DNA of 64,000 bases, taken from an uncultured Gemmiger sp. Its GTDB lineage: Bacteria; Bacillota; Clostridia; Oscillospirales; Ruminococcaceae. The notes under the pieces were generated by a model. That model had not been told where the DNA came from. It ran no database searches and worked only from the letters and a program-made list of their open reading frames with translations. The DNA lies in contig CALXAH010000004.1 of assembly GCA_944386225.1 (NCBI GenBank), forward strand, positions 95,439 through 159,438, written 5' to 3'. A program made the position numbers and the translations under genes. This document shows positions 5,430-59,219 of the stretch, piece by piece (positions within the stretch are counted from its first letter, which is position 1; each line of letters starts with the position of its first letter).

Positions 5430-6882
5430 GGCCCTGCGCCTCCTGCCCGCCGCTGCCGGCCAGCGGCAGATACAGGGTGATCAGGGTGCCCTGACCAACC
5501 CGGCTGTCCACCTCGAAGCGGCCGCCGTGGATCCGCACGATCTGTTCGCACAGGGCCAGGCCCAGCCCCGCGCCGCCCGCCTTGCGGGCCCGGGACTTGT
5601 CCACCATGTAGAAGGGCTGGCGGATCTTGTCCAGCTCGGCGGCGGGGATGCCCCGGCCGTAGTCCCGGATGCAGATCTCGGCCCAGCCGTTCTGGGGCCG
5701 GCCCGCCAGCACCAGCTTGCCGCCCGCGGGGCTGGCCTTGCGGGCGTTGTCCAGAAAGTTGTACAACAGGCTTTTCAGCAGTTCCCGGTCGCCGTTCACC
5801 ACCATGGGCTGGCAGAACTGTTCCAGACGCAGCTGCCCGCTGGTCAGCAGGGGCTGGATGGCGGTGGCCACCTCCTTGAACAGCTCCGGCATGTCCACCG
5901 GGGTCAGCACCAGGTTTCGGTTCTCCACCGCCAGCAGCTCCATCAGCTTGCCGCTCAGACTGCGCAGGCGGCGGGTCTCCTCCACGATGATGCCCGCGTA
6001 CCGCATCCGCTGCTCGTCCGGCACCTGCTTCTGCAGCTGCAGCAGATCCGCAAACCCCAGGATGCTGGTCAGGGGCGTTTTCATCTCGTGGGCCATGTTG
6101 GCGGTAAAGGTCTTCTGGCTTTCGGCGGTGTGTTCCAGCTGCTCCACCCGCTGCTGCACCGCCCGGGCCAGCCGGTTCATATCCTGGGCCAGGCCCGCCA
6201 GCTCGTCGCCGCTGGTCAGTTCCAGCCGCTGGGCATAGTCGCCCCCGGCGATGCGGCGGGCGGTGCGGCTCAGGGTATGCAGCGGACGCAGCATGGTGCG
6301 CACCACCACCACCAGCAGCCCGGCGCCCGCCAGGCTCACCGCCAGGCTTACCGCCATCAGACGGATGCTCTGCCCGGCCAGCCGGTCCACCCCGGCCTGC
6401 ACCGAAAACCGGCACACCAGCCGGTAGTCGTGCTGCTCGGCGGTAAAGGGCAGGCTGCACACCAGCACCGCCCCCTCCGGCCCCCGGCTGTATTCATACA
6501 GGGTGCCGGGGGCGGTTTCGGCATTGTCCTCCGCCCCGGCCATGGCGTCGGTACAGCCCTCCACCGGCGCGTCCAGGGCCTGCCCGTTCCGGTACAGGCC
6601 CAGCTGCAAAAGATACTCGTCGGTCAGCTGGCTGGAGGCGCTGCGCACCGCCGCCGTGTCCGCCGCGTCGGCGTCCAGCATCATCAGGCCGTTCTGCAGC
6701 CGGGTACTCACCACGCCGGTTTTGATCAGCCGCGCCAGATACTGCTGCTGGGTCAGCGCCCGGTCCAGCTGCTGGTCCCACACCGTCTGCCAGCTGGCCC
6801 GCACGAACAGCAGGGTCAGCAGGCTGGTGCAGCAGACCATCAGGGCCAGCGTGCCCAGAAAGATCTTCTGCCACAGTTTCAT
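5419..6882 (-). CDS. Sensor histidine kinase (HAMP, HisKA, HATPase)
   Basis: This is a 487-aa membrane histidine kinase of OmpR-partner type. A first membrane helix lies at about residues 6-27 and a second near 172-192, enclosing an extracytoplasmic sensor of about 145 residues. A HAMP linker follows, then the HisKA domain with phospho-acceptor H265 in NMAHEMKTPLTS. The ATP-binding domain shows the N box (LLYNFLDNARKA), the G1 box (RDYGRGIP) and the G2 box (GAGLGLAL). It starts one base after the stop of the response regulator and would phosphorylate it. The stimulus is unknown; the three downstream genes suggest cell-envelope stress. Confidence 0.92.
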   Translation of the reverse strand: MKLWQKIFLGTLALMVCCTSLLTLLFVRASWQTVWDQQLDRALTQQQYLARLIKTGVVSTRLQNGLMMLDADAADTAAVRSASSQLTDEYLLQLGLYRNGQALDAPVEGCTDAMAGAEDNAETAPGTLYEYSRGPEGAVLVCSLPFTAEQHDYRLVCRFSVQAGVDRLAGQSIRLMAVSLAVSLAGAGLLVVVVRTMLRPLHTLSRTARRIAGGDYAQRLELTSGDELAGLAQDMNRLARAVQQRVEQLEHTAESQKTFTANMAHEMKTPLTSILGFADLLQLQKQVPDEQRMRYAGIIVEETRRLRSLSGKLMELLAVENRNLVLTPVDMPELFKEVATAIQPLLTSGQLRLEQFCQPMVVNGDRELLKSLLYNFLDNARKASPAGGKLVLAGRPQNGWAEICIRDYGRGIPAAELDKIRQPFYMVDKSRARKAGGAGLGLALCEQIVRIHGGRFEVDSRVGQGTLITLYLPLAGSGGQEAQGHEE

Positions 6883-6883
6883 C

Positions 6884-7558
6884 TTACTTCTCCAGCCGGT
6901 ACCCCACCCGGGGCAGGGTTACCAGCTTGTCCGCCAGGCCCAGTTTCTGGCGCAGCCGCTGCACATGGATGTCCACGGTGCGGGTCTCCCCCGCAAACTC
7001 GTAGCCCCACACCAGCGCCAGCAGCTTCTCCCGGCTGAGCGCCAGATCCTGATGCTGCAGAAATACCCGCAGCAGTTCAAACTCTTTCGGGCTCAGCGCC
7101 ACCGGCACCCCGGCCCGGGTCACCGTATGGCTGCCCAGATCCTGCTGGATGTCCCGGTAGACCAGCACCTGCCGCCCCTTGCCCCGGCGGCGCAGGGCCA
7201 CCTCCACCCGGGCCAGCAGTTCCAGCGCCTCAAAGGGCTTGGCTATGTAGTCCTCCGCGCCCAGCTGCAGGCCCCGCACCTTGTCGGTCACCTGCTGCAT
7301 GGCGGACAGAAAGATCACCGGCACGTCCAGCCCGGCCACCCGTTCCATCACGCCGAAGCCGTCCAGCCCGGGCAGCATCACGTCCAGCAGGATCAGGTCG
7401 TATCCGCCGGAAAAGATCTTCTCCACCGCCTCGGCGCCGTCGGCGCAGTTTTCGCAGGTATAGCCGCCCAGCTGCAGGGTGGCTTCGATCATCTGGGCGA
7501 TATGGGCCTCGTCCTCCACAACCAGGATGTGGGCCGTTTGCTGTGTGTTCTGATTCAT
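6884..7558 (-). CDS. OmpR/PhoB-family response regulator
   Basis: This 224-aa regulator has a receiver domain with the acidic pair E15-D16, phospho-acceptor D59 in LILLDVMLPGLDG, and the conserved Lys in AEDYIAKPFE. A winged-helix DNA-binding domain follows (SPKEFELLRVFL to TVDIHVQRLRQKLG). I place the start at the ATG at 7558, eight bases after GGAGGTG. The frame is open further upstream but would run across the divergent promoter region and into coaBC. It leads an operon with the histidine kinase, two anchored proteins and a serine hydrolase. Repeats in its upstream region could be its own binding sites. Confidence 0.92.
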   Translation of the reverse strand: MNQNTQQTAHILVVEDEAHIAQMIEATLQLGGYTCENCADGAEAVEKIFSGGYDLILLDVMLPGLDGFGVMERVAGLDVPVIFLSAMQQVTDKVRGLQLGAEDYIAKPFEALELLARVEVALRRRGKGRQVLVYRDIQQDLGSHTVTRAGVPVALSPKEFELLRVFLQHQDLALSREKLLALVWGYEFAGETRTVDIHVQRLRQKLGLADKLVTLPRVGYRLEK

Positions 7559-7589
7559 GATTCGTACACCTCCGTGCCCCATTATCCCA

Positions 7590-7631
7590 TACAAACCGTA
7601 TCCAAAACCGCGCAAAGTTGTATCAAAACCG
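7590..7631. promoter_or_regulatory. Direct repeats in the response-regulator/coaBC divergent region
   Basis: Three copies of an (AT)C-AAAACCG-type sequence occur here: ACAAACCG at about 7590-7598, GTATCCAAAACCG at 7598-7610, and GTATCAAAACCG at 7620-7631. The last two are spaced 22 bases start to start, about two helical turns, as is usual for OmpR-family sites. Autoregulation is inferred. Confidence 0.4.
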
Positions 7632-7758
7632 TAAAAACGGCAGGGTTCGTGGTATTCCCCCTTACTATACCACAGATATACGCAGGGTGCAAAGGCGGAT
7701 ATTGGCAGGACAAACCCGTCCGGATGTGATACAATAGGCACAGCAAGGAGGGATATCC

Positions 7759-8961
7759 ATGGATCTGAAAGGCAAGACCGTGGTGCTGGCCCTGACCGGC
7801 GGCATCGCGGCATACAAAATCGCCACCCTGGCCAGTATGCTGGTGAAGCAGAAAGCCACGGTGCTGGTGCTGATGACTGAAAACGCCACCCGCTTTATCG
7901 CGCCGCTGACCTTTGAGGCACTGACCGGTACCCGCTGCATGGTGGACACCTTTGACCGCAGCTTCTCCTTTGAGATCGAGCATGTGGCGGTGGCCGACCG
8001 GGCCGACCTGGTGCTGGTGGCCCCGGCCAGCGCCAACGTGATCGCCAAGATGGCAAACGGCATTGCCGACGATATGCTCACCACCACCGTGCTGGCCTGC
8101 CGGTGCCCCAAGCTGGTGGCCCCGGCCATGAACACCGGCATGTATGAAAATCCGGCCACCCAGGCCAATCTGGCCCGCCTGCGGGAGTACGGCGTGGAGG
8201 TGATCGACCCGGCCTGCGGGCGTCTGGCCTGCGGGGCGGTGGGCCCGGGCAAGATGCCCGAGCCCCAGCAGCTGCTGGAGCATATCCGGCGGCACCTGGC
8301 CTGCAAAAAGGATATGGCGGGGCTGCATCTGCTGGTGACCGCCGGCCCCACCCGGGAGGCGCTGGATCCGGTGCGGTTCATCACCAACCATTCCACCGGC
8401 CGCATGGGGTACGAACTGGCCCGGGCGGCGATGCTGCGGGGGGCGCAGGTGACCCTAGTGAGCGGCCCCACCGAACTGGAACCCCCGCCCTTTGTGGAGC
8501 TGGTGCGGGTGGAGAGTGCGGCGCAGATGCACGACGCGGTGATGGCGGCCGCGCCGGCGCAGGACGTGATCATCAAGGCGGCGGCGGTGGCGGACTACCG
8601 GCCCGCCCACACCGCCGGGGAAAAAATCAAGAAGAGCGGCACGGATCTGACGCTGGAACTGACCCGCACCCCGGACATCCTGGCCGAGCTGGGCGCAGCC
8701 CGGCGGCCGGGGCAGTTTTTGTGCGGCTTCGCCATGGAGACCCGGGATCTTCTGGACAACGCCCGGGCCAAGCTGGAGAAAAAGGGCGCGGACATGATCG
8801 TGGCCAACAGCCTGCGGGAGGCGGGCGCGGGCTTTGGCGGAACCACCAACCACGTGACCCTGGTGGAGCCCACCGGCTGCACCGAGCTGCCGCTGGCGGG
8901 CAAGGACGAGGTGGCCCACCGCATTCTGGACCGGATCCTGGCCCGGCGGGCTGAGGCGTAA
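7759..8961 (+). CDS. coaBC: Bifunctional phosphopantothenoylcysteine decarboxylase / phosphopantothenate-cysteine ligase
   Basis: This 400-aa cytoplasmic enzyme catalyses two steps of coenzyme A synthesis: ligation of cysteine to 4'-phosphopantothenate and decarboxylation of the product to 4'-phosphopantetheine. The N-terminal flavin-dependent CoaC half shows GGIAAYK, the PAMNTGMYENPAT substrate-binding motif and ACGAVGPGKMPEP, which holds the conserved Cys. The C-terminal CoaB half begins near residue 190 with TAGPTREALDPVRFITNHSTG split over the nucleotide site. Length matches the family. An AAGGAGG stands just upstream of the ATG. It is divergent from the two-component operon and seems monocistronic. 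Confidence 0.95.
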   Translation: MDLKGKTVVLALTGGIAAYKIATLASMLVKQKATVLVLMTENATRFIAPLTFEALTGTRCMVDTFDRSFSFEIEHVAVADRADLVLVAPASANVIAKMANGIADDMLTTTVLACRCPKLVAPAMNTGMYENPATQANLARLREYGVEVIDPACGRLACGAVGPGKMPEPQQLLEHIRRHLACKKDMAGLHLLVTAGPTREALDPVRFITNHSTGRMGYELARAAMLRGAQVTLVSGPTELEPPPFVELVRVESAAQMHDAVMAAAPAQDVIIKAAAVADYRPAHTAGEKIKKSGTDLTLELTRTPDILAELGAARRPGQFLCGFAMETRDLLDNARAKLEKKGADMIVANSLREAGAGFGGTTNHVTLVEPTGCTELPLAGKDEVAHRILDRILARRAEA

Positions 8962-9355: not shown

Positions 9356-9871
9356 ATGGCCCGCACACTGTACCTGGTGGGCGGCCCCATGGGGGTGGGC
9401 AAAACCACCCTTTGCCGCCTGCTGGAGCACCGGCTGCCCGCCTGCGCGTTTCTGGACGGGGACTGGTGCTGGGAGATGAATCCTTTCGTGGTGAACGAGG
9501 AGACCCGCCGCATGGTGCTGGACAACATCGTGTATCTGCTCAACAGCTTCCTGCACTGTTCGGTGTACGAGAATGTGGTGTTCGGCTGGGTGCTGCATCT
9601 GCCCGAAACCTGGGCGGAGCTGGAAGCCCGGCTGGACACGGCGGGCTGGCGGGTGGTGCGCACCGTGCTGGTCTGTACGCCGGAGGAACTGCGCACCCGT
9701 CTGGAGGCGGACATTGCCGCCGGATGCCGTCAGCCGGATTGCATCCCCCGCGCCCTGGAGCGGCTGGAAAGCTGCCGCCGCCTGCCCGCGGCCTGGCAGC
9801 GGGATACCACCGGCCTGTCCCCTGCCCGCATTGCCGACCGGCTGCTGGCGAATACTTTGGAAAATCGGTAA
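9356..9871 (+). CDS. P-loop nucleotide-binding protein (small-molecule kinase-like)
   Basis: This 171-aa protein begins with a strand and a Walker A loop, GGPMGVGKTT, within the first 20 residues, followed by LDGDWCWEMNPF, as in small P-loop kinases where the DGD/D-x-D site binds substrate. It has the length and layout of shikimate/gluconate/chloramphenicol phosphotransferase-like kinases, but I see no motif that fixes the substrate. It starts two bases after the lipoprotein stop codon, and a bidirectional terminator follows directly. Confidence 0.65.
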   Translation: MARTLYLVGGPMGVGKTTLCRLLEHRLPACAFLDGDWCWEMNPFVVNEETRRMVLDNIVYLLNSFLHCSVYENVVFGWVLHLPETWAELEARLDTAGWRVVRTVLVCTPEELRTRLEADIAAGCRQPDCIPRALERLESCRRLPAAWQRDTTGLSPARIADRLLANTLENR

Positions 9872-9875
9872 AACA

Positions 9876-9916
9876 ACGCGCCCGTCCGGGGCAAAAAGCC
9901 CGGGCGGGCGCGTTTT
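9876..9916. terminator. Bidirectional terminator between convergent genes
   Basis: A long hairpin (arms about 9876-9890 and 9899-9913, one mismatch, loop with AAAAA) is flanked by A-rich sequence on the left and TTTTA on the right. It serves the kinase-like gene on the plus strand and the Pro/Ala-tailed protein on the minus strand. Confidence 0.8.
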
Positions 9917-45709: not shown

Positions 45710-46558
45710 ATGCTGGACTACTTTTATGGTAGCGAAGCCGAGCAATATACGTTCTACCGCATACCCAAAATCCTGTTCACAGACCCGGCATTTCGGCGCA
45801 CCTCCATGGAAGCAAAGCTACTGTACGGGCTGATGTTGGACCGGATGGGGCTTTCCATACGAAATAACTGGATAGACCCGCTGACCCGGCGGGTCTATAT
45901 CTATTTTACCCTGGAAGATGCCATGCAGGCTATGGGCTGCGGGCACACAAAAGCGGTGGCGTTATTTGCCGAACTGGATAAAGTCGGGCTGATCGAACGA
46001 AAGAAACAGGGCCAGGGACGGCCAACGCAGATCTACCTGAAAAACTTTACCCGCAGAGAGAAAGCCCAGACTTCCGGAAAACGGAACTCTAGACTTCCGA
46101 AACTGGGAAGTGCAGACTTCCGAATTCCGGAGACAAATAAGACTGATGAGAATAATACTGAGGGGAGTGATATCAATCTATCCTATCGGGAGCCGCCGTT
46201 ATATGAGCAAGTCCGTCGGCAGATCTGTGATGCGATTGAATATCCTATCCTCGTGCAGCGCCGGGATTGCGACCGGGAAATCCTGGAAGAGATTGTAGAG
46301 CTGCTTACGGATACTCTTTGTGACCCACGAGCCACGATACGAATTGGCGGACAAGATATATCGTCCGAGACTGTCCGGAACCGCTTACAAAAATTGACCG
46401 CTGAGCACATCCTCTATGTGATGGAATGCCTGTTGGAGAATACATCAGATGTTCGCAACATCCGAAGCTATTTGCTGACGGCATTATATAACGCACCCAC
46501 ATCCAAAAGCAGCTACTATACCACGCAGGCCAGTTACAGCCTGAATGGCAGCGGGTAG
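45710..46558 (+). CDS. repA: Replication initiator protein, RepA_N family
   Basis: This 282-aa protein has the RepA_N winged-helix start: YTFYRIPKILFTDPAFRRTS, then EAKLLYGLMLDRMGLSIRN and a VYIYFTLEDAMQAMGCGHTK helix-turn-helix. Its C-terminal part (YREPPLYEQVRRQICDAIEY onward) resembles the DUF6017 domain common in initiators of clostridial conjugative elements. It would start plasmid-like replication of the excised circle. It opens the backbone operon, with GGAGGTG before the ATG. Confidence 0.92.
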   Translation: MLDYFYGSEAEQYTFYRIPKILFTDPAFRRTSMEAKLLYGLMLDRMGLSIRNNWIDPLTRRVYIYFTLEDAMQAMGCGHTKAVALFAELDKVGLIERKKQGQGRPTQIYLKNFTRREKAQTSGKRNSRLPKLGSADFRIPETNKTDENNTEGSDINLSYREPPLYEQVRRQICDAIEYPILVQRRDCDREILEEIVELLTDTLCDPRATIRIGGQDISSETVRNRLQKLTAEHILYVMECLLENTSDVRNIRSYLLTALYNAPTSKSSYYTTQASYSLNGSG

Positions 46559-46596: not shown

Positions 46597-47529
46597 ATGA
46601 GCCCATTGAGCGACCAGGAAATCGCAGCTGCCCGCCGGGTCAGTGTTCTGGAATATTTTAGAACCTGTCTGCCGCGCGAACTGATCCAAGTAAGCGCCCA
46701 TGATTACCGTACCAAAACGCATAGCAGTTTGGTTATCAGCGATAACGGTCTGTTTCACTGGTACAGTGGCGGCGTTGGCGGGAACAATGCTATCGATTAT
46801 CTTACCAAGGTTGAGAAGCTGGACTTTGTGAGTGCCGTGCACCGGTTGAACGATCTCCGTCCCGTCCTGGTTCAGGAAAATCAGCGCGAATGTTCATCAT
46901 CCAAAGAGCCACGCCCGTTTGTTCAGCCTGCGCGGGACAACACCAATCTGAAAGTCCGCGCCTATTTGCGGGGGCGTGGTATCTGCGAGCCGGTGCTGCA
47001 GTTCTGCTTGGGAGCCGGAACGTTGTACCAGTCCAGGCACGGAAGATATACCAACTGCGTGTTTCTTGGTCTGGATGCGAACGGAACAGCCTGCTCAGCC
47101 TTTTCTCGAGGCTGTGAAGGAGGGTGGAGAGGTGATGCGCCTGGAAGCCAGAAAAAGTACGGGTTTATCATTCCGGCAGCTACACAGGACTGCCCGCTGG
47201 TTTTTGTTTATGAAGCCCCCATTGATGCACTGTCGGGGGCGACATTGCGTTGGCAGGAAAGGGGAAAGGACTGGCGAGACCGCTGGTATCTGGCCTTGGG
47301 CGGTCTGAACTATCAGCCGCTGGAGTGGTTCTTGGATAATCATCCGGAAACAACGGTGCTGTATCTTTGCCTGGATAATGATCGTGCCGGTCGCCAATTT
47401 TCCACACGAATCCAGGAACGCTTGGCAAACAGGGGATACAGGATCGTTGATGCGCCGCCCCGCTGTGGTAAAGACTACAACGAGCTGCTGCTGCGCAAAA
47501 AGCAGAGCCGAAAACACGGAGAACGTTGA
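46597..47529 (+). CDS. DUF3991 and Toprim domain protein (primase-like)
   Basis: This 310-aa protein has an N-terminal zinc-ribbon/DUF3991 part ([35 protein letters not shown]) and a C-terminal Toprim fold: [12 protein letters not shown] with the catalytic Glu and [11 protein letters not shown] with the D-x-D metal pair. Such proteins are thought to prime or process replication DNA in mobile elements. It lies 38 bases downstream of repA. The overall layout is typical of clostridial ICE backbones. Confidence 0.85.
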
Positions 47530-47546
47530 AAGGAGCACGCGACACT

Positions 47547-48362
47547 ATGAAGATTATCGCAGTAGCAAACCAAAAAGGCGGGGTGGGAAAAACAACGACC
47601 GCCGTGAATGTAGGCGTGGCCCTGGCCCGGCAGGGATATCGGGTCCTGCTTGTGGATGCAGACCCGCAGGGCGATTTGAGCAGCTATCTGGGGTGCTATG
47701 ACCTGGAGGAAGGGAACGGAACGCTGAGCACGATGATGGACGATGTGATCAATGACCGCCCAATCACGGATGCGGTCCGGCATCACGAGGAAGGAGTGGA
47801 CTACATACCGGCGGATATTGAGCTGTCGGACATGGAGGTGCGGTTGGTAAATGTGATGGCCCATGAACAGGTGATGGCACAGGCGTTGGAGCCGTTCCGC
47901 GACCGATATGATTACTGCCTGATCGACTGTATGCCCAGTTTGGGGATTCTCACGGTGTCCTCTCTGGTGGCATCCGACCGGGTGTTGGTTCCGGTGCAGG
48001 CGCAGCATTTTGCCATGAAAGGCCTGATCTCGCTTGTGCGGAGCATCCAACAGGTACGGCGTCGCATCAATCCTCGCCTGGAGCTGGACGGCATCGTCAT
48101 CACGATGGTGGACCGGCGCACCAATCTTTCCCAGGATGTAAGTGCCGCTCTGCGGCGGGCTTACGGACATCAAATCAAAATCTACAACACAGAAATCCCG
48201 GTCAGTACCCGGACGGCAGAAAGCGCCGCGACCGGACACAGTCAGCTGGACTATGACCCCCATGGCGCGGCAAGTAAAGCCTACATTGCCTTGGCAAAGG
48301 AGGTGACCGGGCATGAGCGGAAAACTGTACGGGAAGAACATCGATCTTCCCCCACTCGATAA
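47547..48362 (+). CDS. parA: ParA-family partition ATPase
   Basis: This 271-aa Soj/ParA protein has a deviant Walker [11 protein letters not shown], followed by [17 protein letters not shown] and the later [12 protein letters not shown]. It would move or separate the replicated element together with ParB. I use the ATG at 47547 because AAAGGAG lies nine to fifteen bases upstream; a TTG at 47526 is less likely. Its last 50 bases overlap the parB start. Confidence 0.93.
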
Positions 48363-49251
48363 CCTGTTCAGCAGCGAGAGCGATCGCCAGGACGCGAAAC
48401 TGGAAAAGGTGCAAAATCTGCGGCTGGATGAGCTGTTTCCATTCCGTGAGCATCCTTTCCGTGTTCGGGATGACGAGGAGATGGACAAAATGGTGGAAAG
48501 TATCCGGGAATACGGAATTCTGACACCGGCGATTGTCCGTCCCCGGCCGGAAGGCGGCTATGAGCTGGTATCCGGGCACAGACGCCACCACGGCTGCGCC
48601 CGCGCCGGGTTGGAGACTATGCCGTGTATTGTGCGGGAGATGGATGACGATACCGCCGTGATCCTGATGGTGGACAGCAATTGCCAGAGAGAACATATCC
48701 TGCCCAGCGAAAAAGCAAAAGCGTACAAGATGAAGCTGGAGGCGATGAAACATCAAGGAAAACGACTGGATATAACTTCATCCCAAGTTGGGATGAAGTC
48801 ACAAACCCTTGATGTTGTGGGAAAGGAGGCAGGTGAAAGCCGCAATCAAGTCCATCGGTTTATCCGCCTGAATGAACTGATTCCCGAACTGTTGGATATG
48901 GTGGATGAGGGCCATCTGAAACTGACACCGGCGGTAGAACTCAGTGCGCTTTCTCCCGATGAGCAGGAACAGGTATTGGAATATCTGGAGTGTATGGAGT
49001 GTACGCCTTCGCTTTCCCAGGCACAGAAGCTGAAAGCGGCCAGCAAAAAGGCGACGCTGTCACCCGAGATCATACAGTCCATCATGACGGCACAGCCGCC
49101 CAGCGTTTCAGCCAGGGAGCCGCAGGTTCGCCTTTCCGTATCCCGCATTGAACGCTTCTTTCCCAAAGGATATACCGTTGAACAGATGGAGTCGCAGATC
49201 CTGCGTATGCTGGAAGCCCTGGAACGAAACCGGATGCACGAAGGGCGGTGA
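48313..49251 (+). CDS. parB: ParB/Spo0J-family partition protein
   Basis: This 312-aa protein has the ParB nuclease-like N-terminal CTPase fold ([37 protein letters not shown] with the GHRR motif, [13 protein letters not shown]) and a helix-turn-helix region ([10 protein letters not shown] to [19 protein letters not shown]). It would bind a centromere-like site and load ParA. The gene overlaps parA by 50 bases. A large palindrome lies in its own coding sequence. Confidence 0.92.
48749..48816. repeat. Nested palindrome inside parB, candidate parS
   Basis: ACTTCATCCCAA (48775-48786), a central G and TTGGGATGAAGT (48788-48799) form a 25-bp near-perfect palindrome. It is enclosed by AACATCAAGG (48749-48758) and its complement CCTTGATGTT (48807-48816). 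Coding text here is the QGK to SSQVG region. The double symmetry is unlikely by chance. A ParB-binding role is inferred. Confidence 0.6.
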
Positions 49252-49847: not shown

Positions 49848-51638
49848 ATGACGAATTCAGAAATAAGTGACTACATACTGCACTACATTCAAAAAGACCA
49901 AACAAAATCCGCAATTATGCTAAGCGCTCCATGGGGAAAAGGAAAAAGCTACTATATACAGAATGAACTTATTCCCTATCTCGCGGAAAATGGTGCTTAT
50001 CAATGCATTGTGATTTCCCTTTATGGGGTAAGCGCGATAGCAGAGATTAGCAAATCCATATTCTTCGAGGTCAAGACATTTGAAATTAGAAAAAAAGCTA
50101 AGCAAATGATTACCACAGATGTTTCTTCAATAGCGCCCTATGTAAAATTTATAAGCGGTACAGTGATTAAAGGAATTACTGGTCATATGGGTATTGATAT
50201 AAATTCAAAAAGCTTTGAAGAATTATGTAATTCAATAGATCTGTCGAATAAGCTGTTGATATTTGAGGATGTTGAACGAGTACAATTTAACATTGTCGAT
50301 CTTATGGGCTATGTGAATAGTCTCGTTGAGCGAGACGGTGTAAAGGTTCTATTGGTTGCCAATGAAACAGAGCTAATCCTTCGCGTTCAAAAAGAAGTAC
50401 AGGAAGGCGAAAGAAAAGAAACGGTGAACGAATTCACTGAAAAAAGTTTGCAGTACTTGAAGATAAAAGAAAAAACGATTAGCGATACAGTTCAATTCAA
50501 TGGCGATGTGAGAAGTGCAATTAAAAATATTATTTACCAATTTGATAACCCGATGCTAAATATCTTTTTGAGAGAGGATAGGCTGGATTATCTGGAAGGA
50601 CTGCTTGCAAATAAACAAATAAGCAATCTAAGGACCTTCCTATTTGCTTGCCAAAAAACTTATGAGATTTTTGAACGTATACAGCCGAACAACTTGGAAG
50701 CAGAATACTTGGAATGTATTTTCTACAGTATTATTTTGTTTTCCCAATCGATTAAAAGTGGAGATATCCCAGAGTGGGAAGGTACAGAATATCTGTCAAC
50801 AAAACTGACTAATGAATTCTTTCCGTTGTTTCGATTCTGCTATGAATACATTCGCTGGCATGAATTCGATTCTGAAAAAGTAGCTGCTACTATTGAGGCA
50901 TTTAAAAAATATAGAATGTACAGTGCCGCATACGCAAATAGTGATTCAGATATCAATGTAATTTTTAATTATTATATTCTATCAACAAAAGAGGTCTTGC
51001 AGGCATTGTCTAACGTTGAAAAAAGGTTGGATGTATGGTCGGATATCCCTATAGAAACGTATGTGAAATTAGCACATTATTTGGTAAAGTTTCATTTTTT
51101 GCTAGGGTATAATTACAGCCTAATAAGACAAAAAATGATCGAGAATGTGAAAGCGCATGGAGAAGATCTAGGAGTGGGCGGCAATTTGCTGTCATTTTAT
51201 GAGTTTGAGACAGAAGAAGAAAAGCAGGCTTTTTCAGAATTCCTAGAAGATATTGAAGAGAGTGCTAAAAAAGCTCTGGAAAATAAATACGAGTTCTCCT
51301 ATGAACCGTCTGACATCGAAGCTTTGCTTAAGAATGTGCAAAAACGTAGAGGCAATATCCATAGATTTATCAGCTACTTTGATGTGGAAAAATTGATAGA
51401 TATGTTGTTTAAAAGCAACGCAAGACAAATCGACGATTTTAGAGAGTTAATGTTTTTAGTTTACAGGGCGGCTACACCAAGCCAGTTCGAATCAAAAGAT
51501 CGAGAGTTTATGCAAGAAATGGATAGAAGGTTGTCAGAGAGAAAAGCGCAACAACAGCATGGAGTTGATGAGATTGCGCAAATGCAAATTGACTATTTGC
51601 AGAGTAATCTCAAGAGTTTCATAAAGCAGCTATCCTAA
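49848..51638 (+). CDS. KAP-like P-loop NTPase (cargo)
   Basis: This 596-aa AT-rich protein has a Walker A at residues 27-34 (APWGKGKS), a Walker B LLIFEDVERV near residue 145 and a sensor-like KVLLVANETEL strand. The C-terminal 400 residues are helical with no clear domain. The short N-terminus before the P-loop and the IFEDVERV Walker B fit the KAP NTPase group, which includes the phage-exclusion protein PifA of the F plasmid. It has its own AAGGAGG binding site, a 200-base upstream gap and its own terminator. It differs in composition from the genes on both sides, so it is probably a separate cargo gene, possibly in phage defence. Confidence 0.7.
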   Translation: MTNSEISDYILHYIQKDQTKSAIMLSAPWGKGKSYYIQNELIPYLAENGAYQCIVISLYGVSAIAEISKSIFFEVKTFEIRKKAKQMITTDVSSIAPYVKFISGTVIKGITGHMGIDINSKSFEELCNSIDLSNKLLIFEDVERVQFNIVDLMGYVNSLVERDGVKVLLVANETELILRVQKEVQEGERKETVNEFTEKSLQYLKIKEKTISDTVQFNGDVRSAIKNIIYQFDNPMLNIFLREDRLDYLEGLLANKQISNLRTFLFACQKTYEIFERIQPNNLEAEYLECIFYSIILFSQSIKSGDIPEWEGTEYLSTKLTNEFFPLFRFCYEYIRWHEFDSEKVAATIEAFKKYRMYSAAYANSDSDINVIFNYYILSTKEVLQALSNVEKRLDVWSDIPIETYVKLAHYLVKFHFLLGYNYSLIRQKMIENVKAHGEDLGVGGNLLSFYEFETEEEKQAFSEFLEDIEESAKKALENKYEFSYEPSDIEALLKNVQKRRGNIHRFISYFDVEKLIDMLFKSNARQIDDFRELMFLVYRAATPSQFESKDREFMQEMDRRLSERKAQQQHGVDEIAQMQIDYLQSNLKSFIKQLS

Positions 51639-51650
51639 AACATTTACATC

Positions 51651-51685
51651 GTGCCCGATGAAGAGACTTTCATCGGGCACTTTTT
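51651..51685 (+). terminator. Terminator of the KAP-like gene
   Basis: A perfect 12-bp hairpin (51651-51662 and 51669-51680) is followed by TTTTT, 12 bases past the KAP stop codon. Confidence 0.9.
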
Positions 51686-51719
51686 ATTCTGGATGAACAG
51701 AAAGGAGAGAAAATCGTTT

Positions 51720-54700
51720 TTGCCCACCTATAAAGAACTGCGAGCGTTGGCTGATACACTGGTTGAGAATGTTACCCGGGACAGTACCAGCTGGAAAGAG
51801 TTTTTGGATTCTGCGTCCTATACTTACGCATATTCTTTTGCAAACCAGTTATTGATCCATGGCCAGCGCCCCGGGGTCACGGCAGTTGCTACCATGGAAT
51901 ACTGGAACAGGAAAGCGCAGCGATGGGTCAGCCGTGGCAGTCGTGGAATTGCGATTCTGGATACACATACAGAGCGCAGCCGACTGCGGTATGTGTTTGC
52001 CATAGAGGATACTCATGCAAATGTGTCTGTGCCCGAAGCCATGCCCTGGGCTGTTACAGATACGAATCGGAGCGAGCTGATCACACGGCTTTTGCAATCT
52101 CACAGTGCGCAAAGCCTGCCGGACGCCATCCATTTTTGGGCGGCGGAATGCATTGCGCAGCGGCGAGTTATGTTTGCACAGGCGCTGAGCCGCGCCGTTA
52201 CGGGTTCTCAGCTGGAACGGCATGATGCAGAAGAGCAGCGCCGCATGTTGGAGGACCTGATCCAGCGCAGCGTTGTTTACATGCTGCTTCGCCGCAGCGG
52301 GATGCAAATGGAGTATGATGCGGCTACAGCATTTGAATCGGTAACCGAGTTCAACACAATCGCGGCCGCGGTCATGCTGGGCAGCGCTGTGCAGCAGGTT
52401 TCCCGCCCGATGTTGATGGAACTTGGCCGTGTGGTGCGCCAGATCGACAGCGTTGCCAAAGAGCATGAGACCGTGCATACTACAATTGGAGAACAGAAAA
52501 CGCTGAATGACCATAAGGAGGCGACAGAGGATGACCATGACCTACACCAACATCAACGGGTATCAGATCCCGAACCTGACATTGGGCGGACAACCAGCCG
52601 ATCCAATCGGGAAATACGGGATGCTGCGCAGGGAGTTTCTGAGAGAGAACGCCCCCGAGCAATTCGAACTGATGAGCATCCAGGGAACGCTGTATCCGCA
52701 TCTGATCGAGATCGACAGAACCGTGCATCAGCAGGTGGAGCAGACAGTAGCGCAGTTAGCACAGAAGAGCAAGATGCCGGACCGCAAGTCCGATCCGCTG
52801 GGCTGGACACAGTGGATGAACAGCCTGAAAGTTCAGGCGGAAGAACTGGCGATGCCGATGCTGTACGCCCTGTAACCGAATATCTTTCACAGGCAGAGAG
52901 TGACAAGTCACCCTCTGCTTTTTTATTGCCCGCCGTGCCGGAACATCTTCTTGACGCGGCGCTGGCGGTTGGTGGGCCCGGGCGTCGGCCCAATGAAGAA
53001 ATCTATGCATATTTTGAATCGCATAAGGACGATGCAGAGAGATGCAACTATTTAAGCGGAATCTATGACGACGCCTACTGCGAGTTTTATGCGGATGGCG
53101 TTCGACTGGGGTGCAAAAAAGAACCGGAAGGGTTGTGGATCTGGAAAGGAAACTTTCTTACCCGAACCAACGAAAGCCGTGTAACCTGGCAAACAGCTGT
53201 GTCTGGCATTGAAAGCCTGATGCAGCGGGGCAAGTTTGTTGCCCCGCTTCGGCTTCCGGACGCGCAGCAAGAAGCCGCCGAAACAATTGCCGCGCAGCTG
53301 CAGTTTCTCCCCGAGGAACAAGTACCGCCTGTGGAGAAAAAACTCCCGCCCCGACCGCTTCCTATTCCACAAAAGGATACCGAAGGTAAAATCACAGAGC
53401 AGGAGATCGAACGCGCACTGCGGAACGGCAGTGGATTTCAAAATGGAAAGCTGCGGATATTCCGGCGTTTATCGCAACCGGTTCCGCCACCGGAAGAAGA
53501 AACAGCGGCTTGGCTGAAAAAGGAGTATGGGACTGGCGGGCAGTCATGGACATTTCTTGACGGAATGAGCGGGTGGCTGGACTACGATTCAAAAGGTTTT
53601 GAAATTCAATACGACACCGGAGACCGCAGACTGACCCGGCACTTTGGATGGAAAGAGATGGCCCGGCGTCTGACGCAGCTGATTCGCCAGGGTGGGTATT
53701 TCACAGAGCAGGAGACAGAGAAATACACCGTCTGGCTGCGGGAGCAGGAATCCCAGGAGGCACAGGCACGGTCAGAACAGGAACTTGCCGAGTCTATGAT
53801 CCGGGATTTTTGCGAGAGAAATGCGTTTTCAGAACCAGATTTTACAGACCCTACGCATATATCTCTGGCGTATTCCACTACCGGTGACGGAGACCATGAA
53901 ATCACAGTCTATGCGAATCTGGTACGTTATGAGATCATTCTTCAGGTGGATGGAAGGATGGTAGAATCCCGCCAATACAGCAGCAATGCGGAACTCGTGG
54001 ACAAAGAACTGGCGAATATGGAGTTCGCTGCCTTGATCGCTGATGCTGAGGCGGCATTTGAAAAGCGGCCGACACAAGAGCCGGTATCGACACGTCTCTG
54101 CGTTGTAGACGACGTGGTCTATCTGGAGAACGGCACACCATTTGTGATCCAGGATATTGGCGAACAATCCATTCTGGTATGCGATAAAGCGGTACCGTTG
54201 TTCAGCCGCAGCATTTCTCGCGAGGAATTTTCCCGGCTTTTGAAACGGGATGAACGCAACCGAAACCTGCGCGCTCCGGAACAGGCAGAACCGGTTCCGG
54301 AATCGGAACCGCTCTTTGAAGAGGGCGACACGTCCTTTGTGGAACAGGTGATGGCAGATGCCAAAGCCTTGTCCGAACCCTTTACGTATGAGCCGATCAA
54401 CTATACAGCGCCTTACCGTCCTCAAATACCCAGTGGCCCGAAAGAGAAATTTGCCGTCAATGTAGCAGCGATCCGGCTGCTGAAATCCATTGAGCAGCGT
54501 GTTGCAAATGGGGGAATGCCTGCAAATGCCGACGAACAATCCGTACTGGCGCAATACTGCGGATGGGGCGGACTGGCCGATGCCTTTGACGAGAACAAAA
54601 CTGCCTGGTCACAGGAGTATGCCGAACTGAAAGCCCTGCTGACCGAGAGCGAGTATCAGGCAGCGCGCAGCAGTACACTGACCGCTTTTTTTACTCCAGC

Positions 54701-57700
54701 CGAAGTAATCCACCCCATGTATCGGGCGCTGGAGCGTATGGGCGTACACGGAGGAAACATTCTGGAACCCAGTATGGGGACCGGTGCATTCTTTGCCCAT
54801 AAGCCAAGCAGCTTTGATCAAAACAATGCAAAATTGTATGGCGTTGAGCTGGACGATCTGACCGGCCGCATTGCAAAGCAGCTATACCAGAAAGCGCGCA
54901 TACAGATCACAGGCTTTGAAAAAGCAACTCAGCCTGACAGTTTCTTTGACTGCGCGGTGGGGAATGTGCCGTTCGGGGATTTTTCCGTGATCGACCGCCA
55001 ATACGACAAGCTGCATTTCCGCATCCATGACTATTTCATCGCAAAGACCATCGATAAGGTGAGAAATGGCGGTATTATCGCGTTCATTACGACCAGCGGT
55101 ACCATGGATAAGAAAAATGAGGAGGTGCGCCGCTACATTGCCGCCCGCTGTGATCTTCTCGGTGCGGTGCGGCTGCCGGATACTACATTCAAGCGCAATG
55201 CCGGTACGCAGGCTGTGGCGGATATTCTGTTTTTACAGAAGCGTGACCGGATCGTGGAACGGGATGAGCCGTGGCTGCATCTGGGTGAAACAAAGGATGG
55301 CATTCCGGTCAACCAATATTTTGCTGATCATCCTGAAATGGTATGCGGCACCATCAGAATGGTCAGCGGCCCGTATGGCCAGGTACCTACCTGTGAACCC
55401 AGTGGCGATGGTACCTTGGAGGAACAACTGGACAGGGCTCTGGGCAATCTTTCCGGAACGCTGACAAAGGAGGAGGCTGTGCAGGAAGAACCTGGAGCAG
55501 CGGACGAGGATACAATCGAAGCTGACCCGGATGTACGCAATTTCAGCTACACAATACAGGATGACAAAATCTACTTCCGCACCAATTCCATAATGCGGCG
55601 GGTAACGTCCGGTGTTGCAGCAGAAAGCCGCATCCGAAAGCTGATCGGGCTGCGGGACACGGTGCGCCAATTGCTTACGGCCCAATTGGATGACCATCCG
55701 GATGAGGAAATCCAGCGCCTGCAACAGCAGCTGAACTCCCAATACGATGCCTATCACCGTCAGCATGGCCTTATCAACAGCCGAGGCTCTGCTCAGGCAT
55801 TTCAGGATGACAGTAGTTACTACCTGCTTTGCTCTCTGGAAGACATTGATGAAGAAGGGCGGCTGCGCGGCAAGTCCGATATGTTCACCAAACGGACGAT
55901 CCGCAGCGCCCGGCCTGCTGAACGGGCTGATACAGCCAGCGATGCGTTGGCCCTGTCTATCGGAGAAAAAGCGGGCATTGATATGCCGTATATGATGCAG
56001 CTCACCGGCAAGACAGAAGAACAGCTGGCCGAAGAACTGACAGGCGTGATCTTCACAGATCCTATGGAAAAGGGGCTGGACGGAAAGCCCATCTACCGTA
56101 CAGCGGATGAGTATCTGTCCGGCAATGTGCGTGAGAAGCTGGCTGTGGCAAAACTGGCAGCCCAAACCAATCCTGCTCTGCGTGTTAATGTGCAGGCACT
56201 GGAACAGGTACAGCCGAAAGACTTGGAGGCAAGTGAAATTGCCGTTCGTTTGGGGGCAACCTGGATTGAACCTGCGATCATCAAACAGTTCGCAGATGAA
56301 TTGGTGGATGCGCCTTCGGTATCCCGGCGGCTGGTGGAGGTTCACTACGCACCTTATACCGGTGTGTGGAACATTTCCGGAAAAAGCTGCACAGGAGGGA
56401 ACGTAAAGGCACTGGTTACCTACGGAACAAACCGGGCGAATTTTTATCACATTCTGGAAGAGAGCCTGAACCTGCGCGCCATCCGCATTTTTGATATGGT
56501 GCGAGACGCGGAGGGGATGGAACGCCCGGTGCTGAATCAGCAGGAAACGCAGGCAGCGCAAGCCAAACAGCAGCAGATCGAGGAAGCGTTCAAGGAATGG
56601 ATCTGGCAGGATCAGACCCGGCGGCAGCAGCTGGTACGGTTATATAATGAGCGATTCAATTCCACGCGGCCCCGTGAGTATGACGGCAGCCATATCCTGT
56701 TTCATGGTATGAACCCGGAGATCGTTCTTCGGCCGCACCAGCGCAATGCAGTCGCGCACATTCTGTATGGCGGCAATACTTTGCTGGGCCATGTGGTGGG
56801 TGCGGGCAAGACCTACGAGATGGTGGCCGCTGCTATGGAAAAGAAACGGCTGGGATTGTGCAGCAAAACCCTGATCTGTGTACCCAACCATCTGACTGAG
56901 CAGCTGGCATCTGAAGCGCTGCAGCTATATCCCAATGCCAACATTCTTGTGGCCAAGCGCACAGATTTTGAACGGGCAAACCGGAAACGATTTTGCGGGC
57001 GTATTGCCACCGGCAATTATGACATCATCGTGATCGGGCACAGCCAGTTTGAGAGAATTCCGCTTTCTACGGAGCGGCAGGCTTCCTATCTGCAGCGCCA
57101 GATTGACGAAATAGTGGAACAGACGGCGACTCTAAGACAGGAGCGGGCAGAGAAGTTCACAATCAAGCAGATGGAGCGGACCCGCAAACAGCTGGAAAAA
57201 CGGTTGGCCAAGCTGAATGATACGGAACGCAAAGACGATGTGGTCACCTTTGAGGAACTGGGTGTGGACTCCCTGATGGTGGACGAAGCCCATATGTTTA
57301 AGAATTTGATGTGCGTTTCCAAGATGCGCAATGTGGCCGGCATCAGCCAGAGCGAAAGTCAGCGGGCAAGTGATCTGTTGATGAAAACCATGTACCTGGA
57401 TGAGATCACTGGTGGACGAGGTGTGACCTTTGCCACCGGTACGCCGATCAGCAACTCCATGACCGAGTTGTATACGATGATGCGGTATCTGCAACGGCAT
57501 ACGCTGGAACAAAAGGGGCTGGCTATTTTTGATGCCTGGGCCTCAACATTCGGAGAAACCGTGACCGCAATCGAATTGGCACCGGAAGGTACCGGTTACC
57601 GGACAAAGACCCGTTTTGCCCGGTTCTATAATCTGCCGGAACTTATGAGTTTGTTTAAGGAATCGGCAGATATCCAGACAGCAGATATGCTGAAACTCCC

Positions 57701-59219
57701 AGTACCGGCGCTGGAGGGCGGTAAACCCACCAATGTACAGTTGAAACCAAGTTCGATCCAAAAAGAAATGGTAGCTGAGCTGGGAAAACGTGCCGACACG
57801 GTGCGCAACCGGGAAGTAGACCCATCCCAGGATAATATGCTCAAGATCACAAACGATGGGCGCAAGCTGGCATTGGATCAGCGCCTTATTGATGAAACTT
57901 TGCCGGATGATCCTGGCAGCAAGGTGAATGCCTGTGTGGAACGAGTTTTTTCCATCTGGGAGCGCACGAAAGCCAACCGCTCCACACAGTTGATTTTCTG
58001 TGACCTCTCCACACCAAAAGCCGGAGTTTTCAACGTGTACCACGATGTTCGTGGAAAACTTATAGCACTGGGAGTCCCGGCAGAGGAGATCCAGTTCATT
58101 CATGATGCCAATACGGAGACCCGAAAAGCCGACCTGTTCCGGAAGATGCGCAGTGGCGCAGTACGGATATTGATGGGGAGCACAGCGAAAATGGGCGCGG
58201 GAACCAATGTACAGAAGAAGCTGATAGCGCTGCACCATCTGGATGTTCCCTGGCGGCCTTCGGACATTGAGCAGAGAGAGGGACGCATGGTGCGTCAGGG
58301 GAATGAAAATAAGGAGGTGGCAATCTACCGGTATGTGACAGAAGGAACATTCGATGCCTATTCCTGGCAGCTTATTGAGAACAAGCAGAGATTTATCGGT
58401 CAGATCATGACAGGCAAGAGTCCTGCCCGATCCTGTGATGACATGGATGAAGCTGCGCTGTCCTATGCCGAGGTCAAGGCGCTGGCAGCGGGAAATCCGG
58501 CCATCAAGGAGAAGATGGATCTGGATATTCAGGTTACGAAGCTTCGCACACTGAAGGCGCAGTATGCCAGCCAGAAATATCGGCTTGAGGATGCTATCAC
58601 AATTGCCTATCCCCGTGAGATTCAGCGCACAAAAGGGATTATTGCCAACTGTCAGGCTGACGCAAAGACGATCCAGGAAAATACACGCATAGACCCTGAA
58701 GGAAAGGAGATCTTCTCGCTAAGTATTCAGGATACGGCATATGATACGCGGGAAAATGCAGGAAAGGCGCTTCTGGAACTGGTGGGAACAGCCATGGACA
58801 GCGAACAGCCGGTACCGATTGGCAGTTACAAAGGACTTACGATACAGGCGGTGTATTTACCTTTTGAAAAAGAATTTCATGCGCAGCTTGTCGGTGCGGG
58901 CGTCTATGATGTAACGCTGGGGGCGGATGCTTTGGGCAACATTATCCGCCTTACAAATGCAGCAGCCTCTATGCAAAAGCGAATCGAGTCATCACAGGAA
59001 TCGCTGCGGCAGCTGGAAAAACAGTTGCAGAACGCTCAGGAGGAACTGCAAAAACCATTTGCTCACGAACAGGAACTTGCCGACAAGAGCAAACGTCTGG
59101 CGGAACTGAATGCCCTTCTGAATATGAACGAAAAGGAAAACGCAATTGACAGTGTCCCGGATGAAGAAAGTCAAGCGTGCCAGCGGGCGATCCGTCAGCC
59201 TGGACATCAAGTGAGGTGA
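51720..59219 (+). CDS. Giant ArdC-like / N6-adenine methylase / SNF2 helicase protein
   Basis: This protein of about 2,499 aa is of the LtrC-like kind found in clostridial ICEs. Residues 1-100 resemble an ArdC N-terminal ssDNA-binding domain (YAYSFANQLLIHGQRPG). A charged linker at 270-385 overlaps tnpV in another frame. Two small ICE-specific domains follow (400-700). A methylase domain spans about 905-1190 with SAM motif ILEPSMGTGAFF and GNVPFGDF at the catalytic site. A SNF2-like helicase spans about 1660-2230: Walker A VGAGKTYE, VDEAH, and REGRMVRQGN. A coiled coil ends it. A GTG at 51651 is in frame but starts inside a terminator hairpin, and the ATG at 51693 lacks a binding site, so I choose the TTG at 51720 behind AAAGGAGAG. 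A role in modifying and remodelling element DNA during transfer is inferred. Confidence 0.85.
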   Translation: MPTYKELRALADTLVENVTRDSTSWKEFLDSASYTYAYSFANQLLIHGQRPGVTAVATMEYWNRKAQRWVSRGSRGIAILDTHTERSRLRYVFAIEDTHANVSVPEAMPWAVTDTNRSELITRLLQSHSAQSLPDAIHFWAAECIAQRRVMFAQALSRAVTGSQLERHDAEEQRRMLEDLIQRSVVYMLLRRSGMQMEYDAATAFESVTEFNTIAAAVMLGSAVQQVSRPMLMELGRVVRQIDSVAKEHETVHTTIGEQKTLNDHKEATEDDHDLHQHQRVSDPEPDIGRTTSRSNREIRDAAQGVSERERPRAIRTDEHPGNAVSASDRDRQNRASAGGADSSAVSTEEQDAGPQVRSAGLDTVDEQPESSGGRTGDADAVRPVTEYLSQAESDKSPSAFLLPAVPEHLLDAALAVGGPGRRPNEEIYAYFESHKDDAERCNYLSGIYDDAYCEFYADGVRLGCKKEPEGLWIWKGNFLTRTNESRVTWQTAVSGIESLMQRGKFVAPLRLPDAQQEAAETIAAQLQFLPEEQVPPVEKKLPPRPLPIPQKDTEGKITEQEIERALRNGSGFQNGKLRIFRRLSQPVPPPEEETAAWLKKEYGTGGQSWTFLDGMSGWLDYDSKGFEIQYDTGDRRLTRHFGWKEMARRLTQLIRQGGYFTEQETEKYTVWLREQESQEAQARSEQELAESMIRDFCERNAFSEPDFTDPTHISLAYSTTGDGDHEITVYANLVRYEIILQVDGRMVESRQYSSNAELVDKELANMEFAALIADAEAAFEKRPTQEPVSTRLCVVDDVVYLENGTPFVIQDIGEQSILVCDKAVPLFSRSISREEFSRLLKRDERNRNLRAPEQAEPVPESEPLFEEGDTSFVEQVMADAKALSEPFTYEPINYTAPYRPQIPSGPKEKFAVNVAAIRLLKSIEQRVANGGMPANADEQSVLAQYCGWGGLADAFDENKTAWSQEYAELKALLTESEYQAARSSTLTAFFTPAEVIHPMYRALERMGVHGGNILEPSMGTGAFFAHKPSSFDQNNAKLYGVELDDLTGRIAKQLYQKARIQITGFEKATQPDSFFDCAVGNVPFGDFSVIDRQYDKLHFRIHDYFIAKTIDKVRNGGIIAFITTSGTMDKKNEEVRRYIAARCDLLGAVRLPDTTFKRNAGTQAVADILFLQKRDRIVERDEPWLHLGETKDGIPVNQYFADHPEMVCGTIRMVSGPYGQVPTCEPSGDGTLEEQLDRALGNLSGTLTKEEAVQEEPGAADEDTIEADPDVRNFSYTIQDDKIYFRTNSIMRRVTSGVAAESRIRKLIGLRDTVRQLLTAQLDDHPDEEIQRLQQQLNSQYDAYHRQHGLINSRGSAQAFQDDSSYYLLCSLEDIDEEGRLRGKSDMFTKRTIRSARPAERADTASDALALSIGEKAGIDMPYMMQLTGKTEEQLAEELTGVIFTDPMEKGLDGKPIYRTADEYLSGNVREKLAVAKLAAQTNPALRVNVQALEQVQPKDLEASEIAVRLGATWIEPAIIKQFADELVDAPSVSRRLVEVHYAPYTGVWNISGKSCTGGNVKALVTYGTNRANFYHILEESLNLRAIRIFDMVRDAEGMERPVLNQQETQAAQAKQQQIEEAFKEWIWQDQTRRQQLVRLYNERFNSTRPREYDGSHILFHGMNPEIVLRPHQRNAVAHILYGGNTLLGHVVGAGKTYEMVAAAMEKKRLGLCSKTLICVPNHLTEQLASEALQLYPNANILVAKRTDFERANRKRFCGRIATGNYDIIVIGHSQFERIPLSTERQASYLQRQIDEIVEQTATLRQERAEKFTIKQMERTRKQLEKRLAKLNDTERKDDVVTFEELGVDSLMVDEAHMFKNLMCVSKMRNVAGISQSESQRASDLLMKTMYLDEITGGRGVTFATGTPISNSMTELYTMMRYLQRHTLEQKGLAIFDAWASTFGETVTAIELAPEGTGYRTKTRFARFYNLPELMSLFKESADIQTADMLKLPVPALEGGKPTNVQLKPSSIQKEMVAELGKRADTVRNREVDPSQDNMLKITNDGRKLALDQRLIDETLPDDPGSKVNACVERVFSIWERTKANRSTQLIFCDLSTPKAGVFNVYHDVRGKLIALGVPAEEIQFIHDANTETRKADLFRKMRSGAVRILMGSTAKMGAGTNVQKKLIALHHLDVPWRPSDIEQREGRMVRQGNENKEVAIYRYVTEGTFDAYSWQLIENKQRFIGQIMTGKSPARSCDDMDEAALSYAEVKALAAGNPAIKEKMDLDIQVTKLRTLKAQYASQKYRLEDAITIAYPREIQRTKGIIANCQADAKTIQENTRIDPEGKEIFSLSIQDTAYDTRENAGKALLELVGTAMDSEQPVPIGSYKGLTIQAVYLPFEKEFHAQLVGAGVYDVTLGADALGNIIRLTNAAASMQKRIESSQESLRQLEKQLQNAQEELQKPFAHEQELADKSKRLAELNALLNMNEKENAIDSVPDEESQACQRAIRQPGHQVR
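52531..52875 (+). CDS. tnpV: TnpV-like protein, encoded out of frame inside the giant gene
   Basis: This 114-aa ORF lies wholly within the giant methylase/helicase gene in a different frame. ATG at 52531 follows AAGGAGG at about 52514-52520. The product begins MTMTYTNINGYQIPNLTL, then has PIGKYGMLRREFLREN and LYPHLIEIDRTVHQQVEQT, ending MNSLKVQAEELAMPML. This is the pattern and length of TnpV, first described on the Tn4451-type transposons of Clostridium, whose function is unknown. Both frames are open across the whole overlap. In the giant protein the same DNA yields a charged, low-complexity linker. Confidence 0.75.
   Translation: MTMTYTNINGYQIPNLTLGGQPADPIGKYGMLRREFLRENAPEQFELMSIQGTLYPHLIEIDRTVHQQVEQTVAQLAQKSKMPDRKSDPLGWTQWMNSLKVQAEELAMPMLYAL

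Follow-up and report, generated by a model that had tools for sequence, protein, structure and literature searches.

In integrative mobilizable elements of the Tn4451 type, tnpV is a separate gene, and the nested or embedded gene pairs of bacteria include Rz/Rz1 and comS within srfA. Few long overlapping gene pairs are described as established in bacteria (PMC5810103, PMC9927249); among those reported, pop lies antisense to ompA (PMC7103648), and laoB is also an antisense overlapping gene (PMC5810103). The tnpV of Tn4451-type elements has been listed as an ORF, and an excision function has been postulated for its product from its likeness to lambda Xis (PMC3158075). Conjugative elements are further described as carrying polyvalent proteins, which combine an ArdC-N domain, proposed to bind single-stranded DNA, with a dyad of a DarB-like methylase and SNF2 (Iyer et al. 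2017, PMC5512222).

Here, we analyzed by computation a locus in which these systems meet, located in a window of 64,000 nucleotides (the whole stretch of DNA that was analyzed) from an uncultured Gemmiger sp. Its giant gene is like the polyvalent proteins in that it has an N6-methylase and SNF2 in one chain, an N-terminal part that is ArdC-N-like by some of its homologues, and a mobile-element context, and it thus fits the family as described (PMC5512222). Unlike the proteins of that description, the giant has a linker that comes from reading a second gene out of frame, and the main text of PMC5512222 contains no occurrence of TnpV or of words beginning with "overlap". This second gene belongs to the same TnpV family (PF14198) as that of Tn4451-type elements but, unlike theirs, it is nested. 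As in Rz/Rz1, comS/srfA, pop, and laoB, one gene is contained in another, or covers much of it, and is read in a different frame; unlike the antisense pop and laoB, the two genes here share a strand, the embedded one has 114 codons, and the pair is found across Clostridia and Bacilli. Moreover, the embedded gene is a member of a known family with standalone members, and it is the host frame that is almost free of constraint. Among the open-licence papers listed for TnpV, Tn4451, overlapping genes, and ArdC/SNF2, and in passages of PMC5512222 and PMC3158075, we saw no earlier report of this nested pair. In our judgement, tnpV and the giant gene very probably form a long-conserved nested (overprinted) pair of which both frames are translated, tnpV from its own start, with the linker acting as a spacer.

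The original prediction was of a TnpV-like ORF with its own AAGGAGG and ATG inside a gene of about 7.5 kb, in another frame, and this was confirmed. According to the ORF list and the sequence of the window, tnpV is complete, running from its ATG to a stop at 52873-52875 and encoding 114 aa, and it is contained entirely in the giant ORF in the +1 frame relative to it (Table 1). Its product matches the Pfam family TnpV (PF14198) with 85.2 bits (E 4e-24; curated cut-off 27) over nearly the full length of the profile (positions 1-106 of 111). A comparison with NCBIfam gave no match at E 1, and the match in PHROGs was phrog_24764, a family annotated as of unknown function. A longer ORF of 122 aa would be possible from an upstream ATG at 52507, but the AAGGAGG precedes the ATG at 52531 instead. 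The giant protein reads this segment as its linker (giant residues ~294-408), which in translation proved to be rich in Arg, Asp, Gly, and Ser, in line with the charged Arg/Asp/Gly-rich linker that had been predicted. The source genome contains one second TnpV match, on a different contig (L001), with two stops in the giant-type frame.

Table 1. Coordinates of the nested pair and of the genes around it in the window.
Feature	Position	Strand	Remarks
RepA_N protein	45710-46558	+	element context
DUF3991/Toprim protein	46597-47529	+	element context
ParA	47526-48362	+	element context
ParB	48313-49251	+	element context
KAP-family P-loop NTPase gene	49848-51638	+	34 bits vs cut-off 20
Giant polyvalent-type gene	51651..59219	+	ORF, 7569 bp, 2522 aa
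Giant N-terminal part, ArdC-N-like by homologues	51651..52530	+	Pfam scan of members
tnpV Shine-Dalgarno AAGGAGG	52515..52521	+	9 nt before ATG; in the other frame, giant codons
tnpV	52531..52875	+	PF14198 match; conserved nesting; frame-specific constraint
N6_Mtase match	54663..55247	+	giant residues 1005-1199; 48.9 bits, over cut-off
SNF2-rel_dom match	56772..57314	+	giant residues 1708-1888; 27.8 bits, over cut-off

The giant protein is laid out as an N-terminal ArdC-N-like domain, the linker, an N6-methylase part, and an SNF2/helicase part; a DNA adenine methylase and an SNF2 ATPase, both over the Pfam cut-off, are thereby found in one chain. Its listed start is GTG; translation may begin a few codons downstream of it. 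PF08401 (ArdcN) is matched by 5 of the 46 giant members scanned (best E 1.1e-5), and the N-terminal domain of the window giant itself has no Pfam match at E 0.01. A Foldseek search with the first 606 giant residues returned nothing at E 0.001, R388 ArdC appearing weakly at E 3 only, and a PDB sequence search with a profile of the giant N-terminal part gave no matches. The element context covers the genes up to the end of the window, where the contig also stops; the KAP NTPase gene sits between parB and the giant gene, and a CAP-domain protein is also encoded near the pair. The five plasmid records that were examined first comprise two typed as mobilizable (Virgibacillus and Listeria) and three typed as non-mobilizable (Cohnella, Subdoligranulum, and Monoglobus). 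Many giants, L150 among them (ORF at 5501-8710, plus strand), have a second large ORF with an ArdC-N-like stretch, often of ~1000 aa, just 5' of them.

We assessed the breadth of the nesting in two sets of homologues. For the first set, we screened 396 genomes of the bacterial family for the giant's N-terminal part, and 70 of them had a match; 80 of the 98 places outside the window were fetched, the 18 left out being contig-end fragments or weak or interrupted matches, and these together with the window made 81 loci. The TnpV match was fully within the giant ORF, at identical offset, in 80 of these 81 loci (exception: L126). The second set, which shares some records with the first, was drawn from plasmids, from named genomes (575 relatives, of which the best 80 were kept), and from a phylum sample. 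A filter for a full N-domain was passed by 99 of its 115 loci (L142-L256), the 16 dropped for partial N-domains including L251, L253, L144, ArdC-like proteins of ~300 aa, and contig ends, and nesting at the identical offset was found in 98 of the 99 (exception: L221). Together, the two sets contain 178 nested loci, representing 160 distinct sequences, and giants that have lost the N-domain fall outside these counts because the loci were recovered through it. An even sample of the phylum (398 genomes) yielded 23 giant N-part matches at E < 1e-30, including the window's own, and each of them directly precedes a TnpV match as judged by coordinates, with 22 of the TnpVs over the cut-off and one (G421) just under it. 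Such giants account for at least 24 of the TnpV matches in this sample, of which 53 were listed.

The hosts of the nested pair include Clostridia, Bacilli (Virgibacillus, L142, and Cohnella, L143), and Holdemania (L172, class Erysipelotrichia); L172 is from Holdemania filiformis DSM 12042, and L150, likewise nested, is from Faecalibacterium sp. An122. The records from Collinsella (L207) and Paludibacteraceae (L202) could be due to transfer or contamination. Nesting was also observed in L253, which falls outside the 98 of 99 because of its partial N-domain, and in two Listeria plasmids (L144 and L260) that are outside the counts of both sets and are the two examined among 94 Listeria records matching the giant N-terminal part. 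Divergent nested TnpVs pass the Pfam cut-off in L260, L135, L138, L253, L142, and L143, and L241 is just under it. As anticipated, both frames are open, and this holds for nearly all homologues examined; no locus examined combines a preserved linker with a TnpV frame full of stops, nor is tnpV restricted to this strain. A chance ORF is ruled out by the family score and the recurrence at the same place and offset, and a strain-specific insertion by the PF14198 match and the nesting in both sets. Gene tables, which are incomplete for the plasmids, name one partner of the pair: the giant only in Virgibacillus and Listeria innocua, and TnpV without an overlapping giant part in Cohnella and Monoglobus. 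An apparent open frame of 14,902 aa among the search matches was a stretch reading N and was dropped.

We found two giants of this type without a nested TnpV (L126 and L251). Nesting is therefore not obligatory, and the spacer reading is dispensable in some elements. Directly 5' of the L126 giant, a 249-aa TnpV-domain protein is encoded (L126:5026-5772, minus strand; 34.6 bits). In L221, at ~9751-9897, neither frame of the pair stays open to its usual end, and the sequence that follows continues neither. The giant ORF ends early, 3' of an intact tnpV, in several loci (e.g. L124, L140, L077, L148, L151, and L177); in L124, L148, and L177 it stops shortly past tnpV, and the methylase-helicase part is therefore separate or lost.

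The start site of the nested gene is conserved. A Shine-Dalgarno sequence of at least 4 nt is found before 155 of the 160 TnpV starts, with a spacing of 8-9 nt in 143 of those 155, and the start is ATG in 159 of the 160 distinct nested TnpVs, a count that is partly so by construction because the rule for picking starts favours an ATG and a Shine-Dalgarno sequence. Given this rule, a fairer yardstick is provided by the remaining ATGs within these giants: a Shine-Dalgarno sequence of at least 6 nt precedes 131 of 160 TnpV starts vs 151 of 15,805 other ATGs. The giant protein reads the Shine-Dalgarno sequence as Glu-Arg, and this Arg is AGG in 130 of 133 cases (27 of the 160 had no Glu-Arg found at this site and are left out), against a background of 241 of 2702 Arg codons. 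Where a Ser follows the Glu-Arg it is AGN in 103 of 103 cases, against 1068 of 2432 in the background. This codon bias indicates that nucleotides, not giant residues, are conserved at the Shine-Dalgarno sequence.

To compare the two frames, we shuffled synonymous codons within each TnpV, keeping the protein, for 80 nested genes (near-copies included). Across nested tnpV the giant frame contains no stops vs 206.7 expected, and the third frame contains 976 vs 927 expected. Standalone TnpVs (n=29) have 148 stops vs 203 expected in the giant-type frame, which is also somewhat below expectation, with 1-10 per gene and no gene stop-free. Taken together, the permutation, the third frame, and the standalone genes indicate that coding for TnpV does not by itself account for the absence of stops in the giant frame. 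We then compared substitution classes in 51 independent pairs (159 of 160 sequences retained). Changes per opportunity were fourfold more frequent when synonymous in TnpV and nonsynonymous in the giant (0.080) than when nonsynonymous in TnpV and synonymous in the giant (0.019). The apparent dN/dS was 0.20 (0.14-0.30) for TnpV and 0.86 (0.65-1.19) for the linker, the latter ratio depending on few doubly silent changes (39) and having an interval that includes mild constraint. For changes creating a stop in the giant frame, the rate was 0.07 (0.02-0.12) times that of nonsynonymous changes, and the rate of doubly silent transitions (0.108) was lower than that of silent transitions in the giant flanks (0.155 and 0.166). 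An earlier, smaller set of 29 pairs, with four loci omitted by name, gave a matching picture.

The codon position at which substitutions fall also follows the two frames. In 36 ungapped pairs, 60-74% of substitutions outside tnpV are at giant position 3, a share that drops to 48% in the 45 nt just 5' of the tnpV ATG, and inside tnpV 43-72% are at giant position 1, equivalent to TnpV position 3. The position that varies most thus changes frame at the TnpV ATG and reverts at the TnpV stop. The expectation of a conserved TnpV frame and a varying linker frame is borne out by this switch and by the dN/dS values. Selection is seen in both frames, as amino-acid constraint in TnpV and as avoidance of stops, without clear residue constraint, in the giant; the linker is maintained as an open frame and not as a sequence, and its residues drift almost neutrally. 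With the same offset in both sets and constraint in both frames, these findings support the proposal of a conserved overprinted gene pair.

The predicted products differ in the same region of DNA. The AlphaFold model of TnpV is a beta hairpin with four helices (pLDDT 85.5), and it has no PDB match at E 0.001; a PDB sequence search gave three weak matches (best E 0.32). Lambda Xis has a winged-helix fold, and an Xis-like winged helix, like the Xis-like role postulated for TnpV, is unsupported by this predicted structure. Giant residues 310-426, which include most of the stretch read from tnpV, are predicted to be disordered (pLDDT ~25-32) in a model of the first 606 residues that is of low overall confidence (mean pLDDT 58.5) with the parts flanking the linker better predicted. 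The giant-frame consensus of 43 sequences reads DLHxERGLSDSRP where the linker begins. This motif recovers the linker style that the original prediction ascribed to other ICE proteins of this kind (D-L-H-x-x-x-R-x-x-D-P-x-P-D), and it is the TnpV N-terminus read out of frame, as it would be if the linker were the shifted translation of tnpV.

We propose that the pair, carried by Bacillota plasmids and conjugative or mobilizable-type elements, would work as follows. One mRNA would hold the giant antirestriction-type gene, with its ArdC-N-like domain, DNA adenine methylase, and SNF2 ATPase. Ribosomes in the giant frame would read straight across tnpV and produce a disordered spacer of ~115 residues that would separate the N-terminal DNA-binding-type domain from the methylase-helicase remainder, while other ribosomes would start internally at the Shine-Dalgarno sequence and ATG of tnpV and produce folded TnpV. 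Selection would act on the amino acids of TnpV and, in the giant frame, on almost nothing but the absence of stops, so that the spacer residues would be whatever the codons of TnpV dictate. We infer that both products are made and that TnpV initiates internally. Co-expressed with the antirestriction protein, TnpV would serve the processing or mobilization of the element's DNA.

Other ways of expressing this locus can be weighed against the same data. The open giant frame might have another cause and never be spanned, with three separate proteins (ArdC-like, TnpV, and methylase-helicase) being produced. The giants that end soon past tnpV in L124, L148, and L177 fit such a split, and a restart downstream is possible in principle; however, giant-frame stops are specifically avoided (0 vs 207) and those of the third frame are not, changes that are synonymous in TnpV but create a giant-frame stop are held to 0.07 of the nonsynonymous rate, and the 29 standalone TnpVs lack such openness, which makes separate proteins very improbable. 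Shine-Dalgarno-like sequences can stimulate frameshifting, and the TnpV frame might instead be reached by a programmed +1 frameshift, giving an ArdC-N/TnpV fusion with the Shine-Dalgarno-like site as its stimulator. This would suit the +1 position of TnpV and the many loci in which the TnpV frame is open for some way 5' of the ATG, but the length of this open stretch varies among loci, and an ATG 8-9 nt past the Shine-Dalgarno sequence, present in 143 of 160 distinct loci, would be needless for a frameshift; we regard this route as very improbable. A third alternative, in which the TnpV frame is what remains of an inserted gene that is decaying and has lost its expression, has the least credence of all and hardly any probability. 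Standalone homologues elsewhere make trapping by insertion conceivable, but the purifying selection on the TnpV frame (ratio ~0.20 in close pairs), the Shine-Dalgarno sequence conserved at the nucleotide level, and the TnpV match that both sets show within the giant ORF (80 of 81 loci, 98 of 99 loci) all argue against decay. The nested pair with two translated frames is the reading that we retain.

To consider the function and origin of TnpV, we examined its standalone copies. We scanned the neighbours of 10 standalone TnpVs, picked for long adjacent ORFs from 29 loci, and 7 proved to be Mob_Pre relaxases, each directly upstream of TnpV (L003, L004, L005, L014, L018, L022, and L024, in which tnpV lies directly 3' of the relaxase gene). 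Together with the TnpV gene upstream of the L126 giant, these neighbours suggest a role of TnpV in mobilization alongside the antirestriction protein. On a Salmonella IncHI2A plasmid, a TnpV gene (L258:4998-5360) lies near an aminoglycoside resistance gene, and similar TnpV matches occur on plasmids of Klebsiella, Enterobacter, and Citrobacter. In a tree of 111 TnpVs (80 nested and 31 standalone), the nested/standalone label requires three changes vs 27 under shuffling, and switches between the two arrangements were therefore few. Nested copies occur on many branches, whereas two groups contain all but two of the 31 standalone copies; 29 of the 31 were among the best-scoring TnpV search matches. 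The tree, which leaves out near-duplicates and up to six divergent nested copies and is without a settled root, does not decide which arrangement came first. TnpV is favoured as the older frame because it is predicted to be folded and has standalone relatives, the linker being disordered and near neutral. We consider it unlikely that TnpV resided first or arose overprinted in the antirestriction giants, that the standalone genes of Tn4451-type elements are escapees, and that the linker was selected only for lacking stops.

In summary, we describe a same-strand, fully nested gene pair that recurs across a phylum. The asymmetry between its frames is clean, one encoding a constrained folded protein and the other an open, nearly neutral spacer, and the nesting explains the odd charged linker of a widespread protein family. 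The pair offers a system in which internal initiation and the function of TnpV can be tested.
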